From NCBI GenBank assembly GCA_022510525.1, contig JAFLTH010000023.1:1-38608 (forward strand): a DNA stretch of 38,608 nucleotides, read 5' to 3'. The position numbers were made by a program, and so were the translations under genes. This DNA comes from Lachnospiraceae bacterium. Its GTDB lineage: Bacteria; Bacillota; Clostridia; Lachnospirales; Lachnospiraceae. A model generated the notes under the pieces. The model was given only the letters and a program-made list of their open reading frames with translations, made no database searches and was not told where the DNA came from. Below, one piece after another: positions 28,193 to 31,901 of this stretch (its first letter is position 1; each line of letters starts with the position of its first letter).

Positions 28193-28402
28193 ATGAGGGA
28201 AGAATATGATTTTTCTAATGCGAGAAGAAATCCATATGTAAAAAAAGCAAAAAAGCAGATAACCATAAATCTTGACAGCGACACTATTGATTATTTTAAG
28301 GCTCAGGCAGAGCGTTCCGGAATACCGTATCAGACCTTGATTAATCTATATTTATCAGATTGCGCGACAAAAAAAAGAGAACTTCGGATGTCATGGAAAT
28401 GA
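28193..28402 (+). CDS. brnA: BrnA-family antitoxin
   Basis: Antitoxin partner and likely autorepressor of brnTA. The 69-residue product has an N-terminal stretch for toxin contact (YDFSNARRNPYVKKAKK) and then a ribbon-helix-helix domain, with the strand KQITINLD followed by two helices (DTIDYFKAQAERSG and PYQTLINLYLSDCA). AGAGG seven bases before the ATG supports 28193; a GTG nine bases earlier overlaps that site. Downstream, 16 bases on, begins the first long hairpin. Confidence 0.9.
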   Translation: MREEYDFSNARRNPYVKKAKKQITINLDSDTIDYFKAQAERSGIPYQTLINLYLSDCATKKRELRMSWK

Positions 28403-28418
28403 TTTGATAGATAATGCG

Positions 28419-28498
28419 GCACTTGCATAAATACTAAGTTTCCTTTGCGTCTCTGGCTCCGACAATGAGCAAAGGAAACTTAGTATTTATGCAAGTGC
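28419..28498. repeat. 80-nt hairpin element, copy 1
   Basis: Perfect 30-bp stem, left arm 28419-28448 and right arm 28469-28498, around a 20-base loop GTCTCTGGCTCCGACAATGA. It starts directly after the stop codon of the HAD gene on the minus strand. Copy 2 at 29335-29414 shares the loop in the other orientation, and stem differences are compensated. No T-run follows on the minus strand. Confidence 0.92.
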
Positions 28499-29305
28499 TT
28501 ATTCTAGCACAGACCACATATATTCAGCAAGCCCGTCGTTGTCGTTATCCTTTTGGGTGATGACATCGGCGGCTTTTTTTACTATATCGGGTGAATTCAG
28601 CATAGCGATTCCACAGCCTGCGGCTTCTATCATAGAGATATCATTTTGCGCATCGCCGGCGGCATAGGTGTCCTCCCTGGAAACTCCAAAATGCTCATAT
28701 ATATAACGAACGGCATTACCTTTTCCGGCATCATGGACAAAGAGTTCCAGATAATAATCGTTGGAAAATATAGAACTTATCTTATCCGATGCCCAGTCAG
28801 AAATAGAGGTTCGGAAATTGGTAAGCTTGTCATGGTCTTTTAGGTCAATGGCAAGCATTTTAAAAGGTTCTTTGGGCAAAGCCGAAGCATAGTCATCTGC
28901 AATCACCAAAGGAAGGTGAATCCTTCTGCGATAATAAATGATTTCCGCATCTTCACTATCACATACTATAGCATCATCGGTATAAGTATGTATATGAAGT
29001 CCGCATTCCCTTGCCCGTGCCTGCAAATAGGACACATAAGAAAGCGGCATTCTTTTTTCAAGGATTGCCGTCTTAGAGTCACAGTCATAAATTTGAGTAC
29101 CATTGCTTGCGATAATTATAACTCCATCATAATCAAGCCCAGACTTTTCTTTAACTTCAATTATACTGTCAAGCGGCCTCCCCGAAGAAAGCACAAGTTT
29201 ATTCCCGGCAGCGGTAAATTCATCCAGGAACTTCTTAGTTCGTACAGAAACTTTACTTTCCTTATTAAGCAGCGTCCCATCTAAATCCGTAAACAAAATC
29301 TTCAT
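28499..29305 (-). CDS. Cof-type HAD-superfamily phosphatase
   Basis: Haloacid-dehalogenase-like hydrolase of the Cof / subfamily IIB type, acting on small phosphates such as sugar phosphates or cofactors. Motif I is LFTDLDGTLL (residues 4-13) with the nucleophile Asp, motif II is LVLSSGRP near 40, and motifs III and IV are the later lysine region and GDAQNDISMIEAAG near 215-230, the magnesium site. The 268-residue length fits. A longer frame to 29368 is encoded by the hairpin itself, so the start is taken at MKILF; GGGG is the only ribosome-site-like sequence. It lies between two long hairpins and follows the PHP gene in direction. Confidence 0.92.
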   Translation of the reverse strand: MKILFTDLDGTLLNKESKVSVRTKKFLDEFTAAGNKLVLSSGRPLDSIIEVKEKSGLDYDGVIIIASNGTQIYDCDSKTAILEKRMPLSYVSYLQARARECGLHIHTYTDDAIVCDSEDAEIIYYRRRIHLPLVIADDYASALPKEPFKMLAIDLKDHDKLTNFRTSISDWASDKISSIFSNDYYLELFVHDAGKGNAVRYIYEHFGVSREDTYAAGDAQNDISMIEAAGCGIAMLNSPDIVKKAADVITQKDNDNDGLAEYMWSVLE

Positions 29306-29334
29306 TACAATACGCCCCATTTTATATATTGCAT

Positions 29335-29414
29335 GGAATTGCATAAATACTAAGTTTTCTTTGCTCATTGTCGGAGCCAGAGACGCAAAGAAAACTTAGT
29401 ATTTACGCAATTCC
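29335..29414. repeat. 80-nt hairpin element, copy 2
   Basis: Arms 29335-29364 and 29385-29414 pair over 30 positions around a 20-base loop TCATTGTCGGAGCCAGAGAC. The single imperfect pair (29343 with 29406) is A-C on the plus strand but G-U on the minus strand. Relative to copy 1 the loop is inverted. It begins two bases after the PHP stop codon and ends 29 bases before the HAD start. Confidence 0.92.
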
Positions 29415-29416
29415 CC

Positions 29417-30265
29417 TCAACATATATTAACTGAATTTCGTATTTTAATCAACACCTCTTCAGGAACAAACAACTTCCCGTATCCGACAGCCAAATCCAG
29501 CCCCGGTTTGTTACTGCCATGGAAATCGGACCCACCACTGTGAAGGAGGTCATACTTTTCGGCAAGAGCAAACATATCTCTCTCATCTTGATTTGTATAT
29601 GAAGAGTATATAGTTTCGATTCCCATAAGTCCGGCATCCTTGAGTGTTCTTACAAGAGCATCCAGACGGTCCTTACCCATATGATAGAGTGTCGGGTGGG
29701 CGAGGATAGGAACCCCATCGGTCTGTAAAACAAGCTCAACAGCCTGTGAAGGTGTGATTTTTTCCCTGGGAACAAAATATTTACAGTGGTCGCCCACATA
29801 TTGTGAAAAGGCATCGGCACGGCTTTTTACATAGCCATGATTTGTAAGATAACCGGCATAATGTGCTCTTGTAATGACAGCCCCCGGAAACTCTGCAAGG
29901 AGTTTTTCATAAGTGATATCAATACCGGCCTCATTCAGATTGTTACACATCTTGATGTTACGAGCAATTCGGGCATCAACAAAGGCCTTAAGTCTTGCCT
30001 GGAATTGGTCATTTTTATATTGGATAAAAAGCCCCAGTATATGAATATCCTTACCTTCATATTCCGTAGAAAATTCAATGCCCGGAATCACTTCAACGGG
30101 TTTATCATCTGCATAGGAGATTGCCTCGTCCAGACCGTCTGTGGTATCATGGTCAGTCAGTGCAAAGGCAGACAGTCCCCTCTCCAGAGCATAGTCCACA
30201 AGCTCTATCGGAGTATAGCTGCCATCTGATTTATTTGAATGTACATGTAAATCTACCCGATTCAT
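29417..30265 (-). CDS. PHP-domain phosphoesterase (RNase AM / nucleotide phosphatase type)
   Basis: Metal-dependent phosphoesterase of the COG0613 type, 282 residues, whose relatives trim nucleotide bisphosphates or RNA 5' ends. Motif 1 is DLHVHSNKSDGSY (residues 4-16), motif 2 is FALTDHDTTDG near 39-49, with EVIPGIEFSTEYEGKDIHILG near 61-81 and the later ILAHPTLYHM near 195 and GGSDFHGSNKPG near 250. All metal ligands are present. GAGG six bases before the ATG decides the start; frames reaching further back overlap the ABC-F gene. One base separates its start from the ABC-F stop, so the two are cotranscribed. A hairpin follows its stop at once. Confidence 0.92.
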   Translation of the reverse strand: MNRVDLHVHSNKSDGSYTPIELVDYALERGLSAFALTDHDTTDGLDEAISYADDKPVEVIPGIEFSTEYEGKDIHILGLFIQYKNDQFQARLKAFVDARIARNIKMCNNLNEAGIDITYEKLLAEFPGAVITRAHYAGYLTNHGYVKSRADAFSQYVGDHCKYFVPREKITPSQAVELVLQTDGVPILAHPTLYHMGKDRLDALVRTLKDAGLMGIETIYSSYTNQDERDMFALAEKYDLLHSGGSDFHGSNKPGLDLAVGYGKLFVPEEVLIKIRNSVNIC

Positions 30266-30266
30266 A

Positions 30267-31901
30267 TTAATCCTCATCGGTCGCAGTACTTGTATAAACA
30301 GTACGTTTTCTTGCCATTTCATCATTTTCAAGATACTCATCATAAGTGGTGATCTTGTCAATTATGGTTCCATCAGGAAGGATTTCTATAATCCTGTTAG
30401 CCGTAGTCTGTACTACCTGATGGTCGTGACAGGAGAATAGCTCCACTCCCTTAAATTTTATCATACCTTCATTGAGAGCGGTGATAGCTTCCATATCAAG
30501 ATGGTTTGTAGGCTCGTCAAATATCAGGCAGTTAGCGCCGCTTATCATCATCTTGGAAAGCAGGCAGCGCACTTTTTCACCACCGGAAAGAACCTTTACT
30601 TTCTTGACACCGTCATCACCCGCAAAAAGCATGCGGCCCAGGAAACCACGCACATAAGTCACGTCTTTTACCGAAGAATATCCCATCAGCCACTCGGTAA
30701 TAGTATAATCGTTGTCAAATTCCTCCGTATTGTCCTTGGGGAAGTAAGCCTGTGATGTGGTGACTCCCCATTTATAAGAACCCTCATCCGGTTCGATTTC
30801 ACCCATTAAGATCTTAAAAAGTGTGGTCTTGGCAAGTTCGTTACCGCCTACAAAAGCAATTTTATCATCATGTCCGACAATAAACGAAATATTGTCTAAA
30901 ACTTTCTCTCCGTTGATAGTCTTACTGATGCCTTCAACGGTCAGGACTTCATTACCGATTTCACGCTCCGGTCTGAAGTCTATATATGGATATTTTCTGC
31001 TGGATGGCTTGATGTCATCCAGTTCAATTTTTTCAAGGGCACGTTTTCTTGAGGTAGCCTGTTTTGATTTGGAAGCATTTGCGGAGAAACGGGAAATAAA
31101 TTCCTGCAGCTCCTTAATCTGTTCCTCTTTCTTCTTATTGGCTTCTTTGCGCTGCTTGATTATAAGCTGGCTGGATTCATACCAGAAATCATAGTTTCCT
31201 GCAAACAACTGAATCTTACCATAATCGATATCGGCAGTATGTGTACATACTTTGTTAAGAAAATAGCGGTCATGGGAAACTACAATAACCGTATTTTCAA
31301 AGTTTATCAAAAATTCCTCAAGCCAGGATATGGCATCCAGATCAAGATGGTTGGTAGGCTCGTCCAGAAGAAGAATATCCGGATTACCGAATAAGGCCTT
31401 GGCAAGAAGCACCTTAACCTTTTCATTACCGTTGAGGTCACTCATCATACTGTAGTGCAGTTCGGTTTCAACTCCCAGACCGTTAAGCAGCATAGCGGCA
31501 TTGGATTCAGCATCCCAGCCGTCCATTTCCGCAAATTCGGCCTCTAACTCACTGGCACGTATACCGTCTTCATCGGAGAAATCCTCTTTGGCATATATAG
31601 CGTCCTTTTCTTTCATAACTTCGTACAGACGTTGATTTCCCATGATCACAACATCCATAACGGGATATGAATCATATTTAAAGTGGTCTTGCTCAAGTAC
31701 AGAAAGACGCTGCCCCGGAGTAATTGCAATGTCGCCGTTTGTGGTATCAAGTGAGCCTGAAAGTATCTTAAGAAATGTAGACTTTCCGGCACCGTTTGCA
31801 CCTATAAGACCATAGCAGTTTCCTTCCGTGAATTTGATGTTTACATCTTCAAATAAAGCCTTCTTGCCTACTCTATAAGTTACATTGTTTGCACTAATCA
31901 T
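30267..31901 (-). CDS. ABC-F family ATPase (YbiT/YkpA-like)
   Basis: Soluble twin-ATPase protein of the ABC-F group that acts on ribosomes, without membrane segments. ABC1: Walker A GANGAGKS 34-41, signature LNGNEKVKVLLAKAL and Walker B LLLDEPTNHLD near 184-194. A charged linker with KKKEEQIKELQ follows. ABC2: signature LSGGEKVRCLL and CLIFDEPTNHLD are normal, but its Walker A reads GGNELAKTT near residue 350, lacking the second Gly of the canonical G-x-G-K. The LNGNEK signature is typical of the YbiT/YkpA group. The last base of its stop is one base from the PHP start. It has its own promoter. Antibiotic resistance is not implied. Confidence 0.93.
   Translation of the reverse strand: MISANNVTYRVGKKALFEDVNIKFTEGNCYGLIGANGAGKSTFLKILSGSLDTTNGDIAITPGQRLSVLEQDHFKYDSYPVMDVVIMGNQRLYEVMKEKDAIYAKEDFSDEDGIRASELEAEFAEMDGWDAESNAAMLLNGLGVETELHYSMMSDLNGNEKVKVLLAKALFGNPDILLLDEPTNHLDLDAISWLEEFLINFENTVIVVSHDRYFLNKVCTHTADIDYGKIQLFAGNYDFWYESSQLIIKQRKEANKKKEEQIKELQEFISRFSANASKSKQATSRKRALEKIELDDIKPSSRKYPYIDFRPEREIGNEVLTVEGISKTINGEKVLDNISFIVGHDDKIAFVGGNELAKTTLFKILMGEIEPDEGSYKWGVTTSQAYFPKDNTEEFDNDYTITEWLMGYSSVKDVTYVRGFLGRMLFAGDDGVKKVKVLSGGEKVRCLLSKMMISGANCLIFDEPTNHLDMEAITALNEGMIKFKGVELFSCHDHQVVQTTANRIIEILPDGTIIDKITTYDEYLENDEMARKRTVYTSTATDED

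Follow-up and report, generated by a model that had tools for sequence, protein, structure and literature searches.

At one locus of a Lachnospiraceae genome two long hairpins with the same loop stand at the stop codons of two neighbouring genes, which raises the question whether they are palindromic mobile DNA or a structured RNA element kept by selection, the two readings proposed in an earlier note made from the sequence alone. The window, by which we mean the whole stretch of 38,608 nucleotides that was analysed, is contig C106 of a draft genome of 189 contigs (G000, the own genome), and the genome of a sibling species (G026) was used for site-by-site comparison. Our analysis led us to consider it probable that the hairpins belong to a dispersed, non-coding, fold-back DNA repeat family, REPIN- or MITE-like in kind.

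Hairpins and genes in the window

The locus is organised as follows.

28419..28498, + strand: hairpin copy 1; arms 28419-28448 and 28469-28498; apex 28449-28468, reading GTCTCTGGCTCCGACAATGA on the + strand; covariance-model match
28499..29305, - strand: gene for a HAD-type hydrolase (Pfam Hydrolase_3); stop directly at copy 1; start ATG 29303-29305, a start chosen by us
29335..29414, - strand: hairpin copy 2; arms 29335-29364 and 29385-29414; apex 29365-29384, with the same apex sequence on the - strand; covariance-model match
29417..30361, - strand: gene for a PHP-domain protein (Pfam PHP)

Coordinates and pairing bear out the earlier description of two 80-nt hairpins with 30-bp stems and 20-nt loops at the HAD and PHP stops, the spacing from stop to hairpin being 0 nt for HAD and copy 1 and 2 nt for PHP and copy 2. 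All 30 pairs of the copy 1 stem are Watson-Crick, and copy 2 has 29 Watson-Crick pairs and the one unmatched position already noticed, A-C on the + strand and G-U on the - strand. The loop is indeed inverted, that of copy 2 being the reverse complement of that of copy 1, and the stems differ on both sides together, with GCAC/GTGC in one copy and GGAA/TTCC in the other, and a C-G pair replaced by T-A. Copy 1 lies between convergent frames (HAD on the - strand and a 72-aa frame on the + strand that ends at 28402), and copy 2 between the PHP stop and the HAD start. Folding on either strand is far beyond chance, with z values against shuffled sequence of -13.6 (+) and -13.0 (-) for copy 1 and of -11.3 (+) and -12.2 (-) for copy 2. 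No T-run follows the stem in either window copy on either strand, in agreement with the earlier statement that these are not ordinary terminators, and comparison of the window with Rfam gave 0 matches at the gathering score.

Copies in the own genome and its sibling

Local duplication of one hairpin was rejected as the source of the pair, because a DNA search revealed many further copies elsewhere, several of them at contig ends. Loop-bearing pieces of the element number 43, with 26 in G000 and 17 in G026 (48 matches minus 5 chance matches), some of them probably halves of a single copy split across contigs; an extra G026 copy (C103), beyond these pieces, was read from another locus. By DNA similarity the element was detected in 2 of the 77 genomes of the genus, the own genome and G026, and in a collection scan all 16 exact core matches fell in the MAG Lachnospiraceae bacterium HAN047.

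At the syntenic site of G026, where the flanking genes align at about 90%, neither window copy is present. The C168 copy of G000 corresponds to a clean empty junction in G026, with no clear target duplication, and the C90, C180 and C119:8443 copies are also missing there; in the case of C180 the absence may be due to deletion, since eight bases matching the element end remain. At least eight loci are common to the two genomes, two contig-split halves being counted as one. In G026:C145 (L198) a run of N stands where G000 has its C164 copy, possibly an unassembled copy.

The element is thus multi-copy, intergenic, found in both orientations in its own species and present or absent between siblings. 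Moreover, two near-identical copies in other genomes of the genus, G015 and G039, are bordered, immediately beyond an outer inverted repeat, by 12-bp direct repeats that differ between the two; a flanking 12-bp duplication was seen in 2 of 81 copies, with a chance control of 0.25% for 12 nt or more. The many copies, the empty sibling sites, the occurrence in both gene orientations and the 12-bp repeats of these two copies strongly support the reading as a palindromic mobile repeat. Both window copies stand at stops; copies of the own family occur in both orientations to genes, and at three sites they lie between divergent genes. Viral contigs scanned for the element gave 0 matches, and plasmids and phages, searched with an own-family (family-1) copy only, gave no lead.

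A wider family defined by structure

A covariance model of 26 own-family copies retrieved diverged relatives from G015, G020 and G039, and had no match outside the own genome across 299 Lachnospiraceae genomes. A second model, made from ten copies of G015 and G039, matched 13 of the 77 genus genomes, the own included. With both strands of the palindrome counted there were at least 59 matches each in G015, G020, G036 and G039, and the distinct places among the matches listed were at least 42 in G015, at least 35 in G020 and at least 34 in G039. Eight of the 299 genomes, which represent 298 genera of the family, were matched, one of these being the own. Feet and a long stem of the same kind are present in 4 of the 297 genomes of other genera (15 places in G232, 10 in G222, 6 in G259 and 1 in G227), and the matches in G083, G151 and G362, also of other genera, look like chance on closer inspection. 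A copy passing the scan was obtained from 34 of 40 fetched regions, but not from L280, L284, L286, L287, L295 and L302. Further copies, for which the earlier note had proposed to look in related genomes, exist in G000 and G026, and diverged relatives in the wider genus; a large repeat family was largely missed by DNA similarity, which reached 2 of the 77 genomes as against 13 by the structure model.

Read in the direction that gives the window apex as GTCTC...ATGA, the element consists of a CAG foot, about 30 bp of arm, the apex, the second arm and a CGT foot. Typically the feet are CAG on one side and CGT or CGTC on the other; in many copies one foot is CGTC, CGTG or CGCC, and its first C is paired in the stem. 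The hairpin is about 80-110 nt long, with a stem of about 28-30 pairs and an apex of about 18-28 nt that contains a small inner hairpin. Conservation within a species is found in the apex, the foot motifs are likewise retained, and the arms are largely free in sequence, differing greatly between copies, yet complementary to each other in those full copies that were inspected. Outer helices are present in addition in some copies, and a subset has an outer inverted repeat (TAGATAATTGC...). A second subfamily with another apex (GAGTTGCCACCGCATCCGAA) was seen in the own genome, at G000:C169:12377-12460 (L250) and G000:C133:23113-23198 (L260). At G039:C229 (L239) and G039:C276 (L242) two closely spaced copies point in opposite directions, an arrangement that resembles inverted REP pairs.

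With an E threshold of 1, an Rfam search of 14 further loci returned only tRNA, TwoAYGGAY beside the element, and MIR847, the last as a match on one element far below its gathering score. In G020 and in G050 the TwoAYGGAY RNA (RF01731; L246:1086-1252 and L245:2055-2150) is no more than about 500 nt away from a copy. In the literature on such repeats in these bacteria, titles and opening lines of abstracts gave no description of the element. We read it as a new hairpin family of one (gut) Lachnospiraceae genus and a few other genera.

Origin of the paired changes in the arms

The paired changes, which the earlier note had seen in two copies, proved real and family-wide. An alignment of 26 rows, 24 of them distinct, was made from the 43 pieces by removing 18 that are cut by contig ends and adding the C103 copy; 97.4% of its cells pair. 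Copies were located in this study through their apex, a model score or a palindrome scan, a procedure biased towards conserved and well-paired ones. Two-sided changes occur at 17 of the 30 pairs of this alignment, at 14 of 30 pairs in an alignment of G020 and G050 copies, and at 10 of 33 pairs in a further alignment, levels that were reached by 0 of 500 shuffles in each case. A cross-species MAFFT alignment was set aside because its stems were misaligned.

Such strong covariation speaks for a structured cis-acting RNA in the neighbouring transcripts, kept by base-pairing selection at many loci, an explanation that we regard as possible but doubtful. At some shared loci the changes can be followed at the DNA level. 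At C37/C103, where both copies have the same rare loop variant, the outer arms of the G000 copy are made up of the left flank, which can still be read in G026, and of its inverted copy on the opposite side, and a one-base deletion is found in both arms. At C126/C44 neighbouring bases, a two-base block, are altered together in both arms. Inverted flank-to-flank matches of at least 9 nt beyond the stem were found in 16% of copies, compared with 5.8% of shuffled flank pairs.

In E. coli, template switching is documented to turn imperfect palindromes into perfect ones (PMC7202029), and the events at C37/C103 and C126/C44 fit such switching. Since some of the paired changes are copies of flank sequence or deletions in both arms, for which a DNA template switch accounts directly, the argument for RNA is weaker than it looks, and matching arm changes alone are no proof of RNA function. 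Most likely, DNA-level arm copying and a requirement for the hairpin together underlie the covariation. Template switches during replication of the palindrome would keep the arms complementary by rewriting one arm from the other, and might pull flank sequence into an arm. This suggests caution in structured-RNA calls, since strong covariation in bacterial intergenic hairpins may stem from a DNA process.

Wobble pairs and the orientation of neighbouring genes

Strand-specific wobble had been taken in the earlier note as a sign of a transcribed structure. With the apex read as in copy 1 (+), G-U outnumbers A-C by 30 to 4 in the 26 own-family copies, where a single conserved column holds 15 of the 30, and by 14 to 3 in 10 copies from G015 and G039. 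In 20 copies of G020 and G050 the ratio of G-U to A-C is 5:11, and in 34 copies of five species (G015, G020, G036, G039 and G050), partly the same copies, it is 13:19, with 6 of the 19 at a shared bulge near the apex. A strand preference therefore exists in two subfamilies, where it speaks for the cis-acting RNA, but it is not general and is not seen in G020 and G050, and half of the own-family wobbles come from a single column.

Gene neighbours were assigned by a simple longest-ORF rule, by which PHP was missed as left neighbour of copy 2. With this rule, the right-hand gene in G000 and G026 is on the same strand as the element in 12 cases and on the opposite strand in 13, so that the wobble-preferred strand is not simply the gene strand; this even distribution and the sites between divergent genes argue against an RNA that acts on the adjoining transcript. 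In the other subfamilies the next gene is on the same strand in 41 cases and on the opposite strand in 18, a count that includes orthologous copies of the G020/G050 and G035/G037 pairs and derives its excess largely from G020, where 17 of 19 copies are on the strand of the next gene. Moreover, an SD-like motif and start follow in 22 of the 34 copies of the five species named above, and in 14 of these 22 the start lies 51-68 nt after the stem. Both observations favour the cis-acting RNA. Against it stand the 18 downstream genes that were scanned, of 22 found, which have varied and unrelated functions, including gltB, Hsp33, argS, a PTS transporter and ruvA, as well as the missing Rfam match; a regulon was rejected on the same ground of unrelated downstream genes. 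In G026:C153 (L134) and G020:C24 (L264) apparently the same gene, glutamate synthase, is directly preceded by copies that differ in apex and stem, the assignment being based on a GATase_2 domain for L264 and on the N-terminal sequence for the G026 gene.

Divergence of shared copies

At seven loci shared by G000 and G026 (nine comparisons) the element differs at 18 of 639 positions, as against 83 of 736 in the adjoining 60-nt flanks. The count for the element leaves out C37/C103, which is rearranged, and C115/C107, whose apex is lost in G000, and it compares the halves of two copies separately, their apex being counted twice. The loop subtype is kept in 8 of 8 shared loci. Likewise, at three sites common to the G020/G050 and G035/G037 pairs the element differs at 0 of 82, 1 of 82 and 2 of 78 positions, and the adjoining 45-nt flanks differ at 37 of 263.

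Since shared copies diverge far less than their flanks, some function is likely, which counts against purely selfish DNA; indeed, slow divergence and kept loop subtypes would not be shown by neutral mobile DNA and weigh against the mobile-repeat reading that we prefer. The same low divergence adds to the case for a cis-acting RNA. These comparisons argue for function at retained sites or for a lowered mutation rate, and repeat smoothing by assemblers may contribute to the low divergence. From the sequences, a function of the retained copies seems likely, possibly as RNA. The proposal of a structured RNA kept by selection, the reading favoured in the earlier note, is thus upheld as far as the paired changes are real, the shared copies are conserved and selection on structure is plausible, but paired changes and wobble are weaker evidence for it than had been claimed.

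Further points that count against the mobile repeat are the co-orientation in G020, the G-U lean in two subfamilies, the presence of duplications in only 2 of 81 copies and the lack of an intact Y1 gene in G000 and G026. Tentatively, the element might be defined by structure, its arms of nearly free sequence being copied from each other so that complementarity and not sequence is inherited, with retained copies recruited as hairpin leaders or ends of transcripts and, in one species, standing at a nearly constant spacing ahead of start codons; we hold this to be a conceivable but less probable account. In the mobile-repeat reading, copies would spread by transposition of the hairpin, for which apex and feet might serve as recognition sites, and copies beside gene ends would be tolerated or useful, some of them then being kept by selection on the folded structure.

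Relation to known mobile hairpins

Among known elements, REPINs come closest. REPINs, which are REP doublets of Pseudomonas, are described as mobile hairpins with frequent compensatory changes (PMC3116915), and REPs are stated to cluster close to 3' gene ends, with stems of 5-13 bp in GTAG/CGTC-tagged REPs (PMC3733652); TnpA-REP and its hairpin substrates are treated in PMC8266576 and PMC6006769. In common with REPINs, the element is a short, dispersed, intergenic hairpin of the non-autonomous mobile type, about 80-110 nt long, with many copies and frequent arm-to-arm compensatory changes. However, in REPINs a variable spacer separates two conserved REP ends that are inverted to each other, whereas here the apex is conserved and the outer arms vary. 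Palindromes often near stop codons are shared with the GTAG/CGTC REPs, and a short foot motif may be (an unpaired GTAG or CGTC in those REPs, CGTC or CGTG at one foot here), but the stem of about 30 bp is far longer than their 5-13 bp, the CGTC overlaps the stem, and the apex of about 18-28 nt contains an inner hairpin.

REPINs go with a RAYT gene, and membership in a REP/REPIN system already on record, with a RAYT (Y1) transposase as its mobilising enzyme, would be in line with the mobility, the compensatory changes and the position of REPs at 3' gene ends. We nevertheless consider it unlikely, given the long stem and the reversed arrangement of conserved and variable parts. Moreover, the search of G000 and G026 for Y1 transposases yielded no intact gene but only decayed Y1_Tnp fragments (PF01797, IS200-like) at G000:C159 (L160) and G026:C3 (L159 and L161), and the family-1 core is absent from the fetched surroundings of these fragments. 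With MITEs the element has in common its non-coding nature and the many copies, and terminal inverted repeats with a target-site duplication may be represented, on two copies, by the outer inverted repeat and its 12-bp duplication; it differs in that most copies are without a recognisable duplication and that there is a long inner hairpin with covarying arms. An assembly or binning artefact, or a set of ordinary intrinsic terminators, is highly improbable, since, although many contigs end inside the element and the genomes are drafts, copies of differing sequence lie inside contigs of several genomes, terminators do not need a conserved apex, and the window copies are without the T-run that terminators have after the stem.

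The loci at which arm copying can be followed between species offer natural material on palindrome correction and on the spread of hairpins outside Proteobacteria. Both ends of the window contig (1-75 and 38533-38606) lie in a second dispersed repeat (AAATTGAAATTTGTG...GGGGACGGATGGAGAGGCGTCGGAGTCGGG...), which has 41 BLAST matches in G000 and 28 in G026 (E up to 1, weak matches included), many of them at contig ends.
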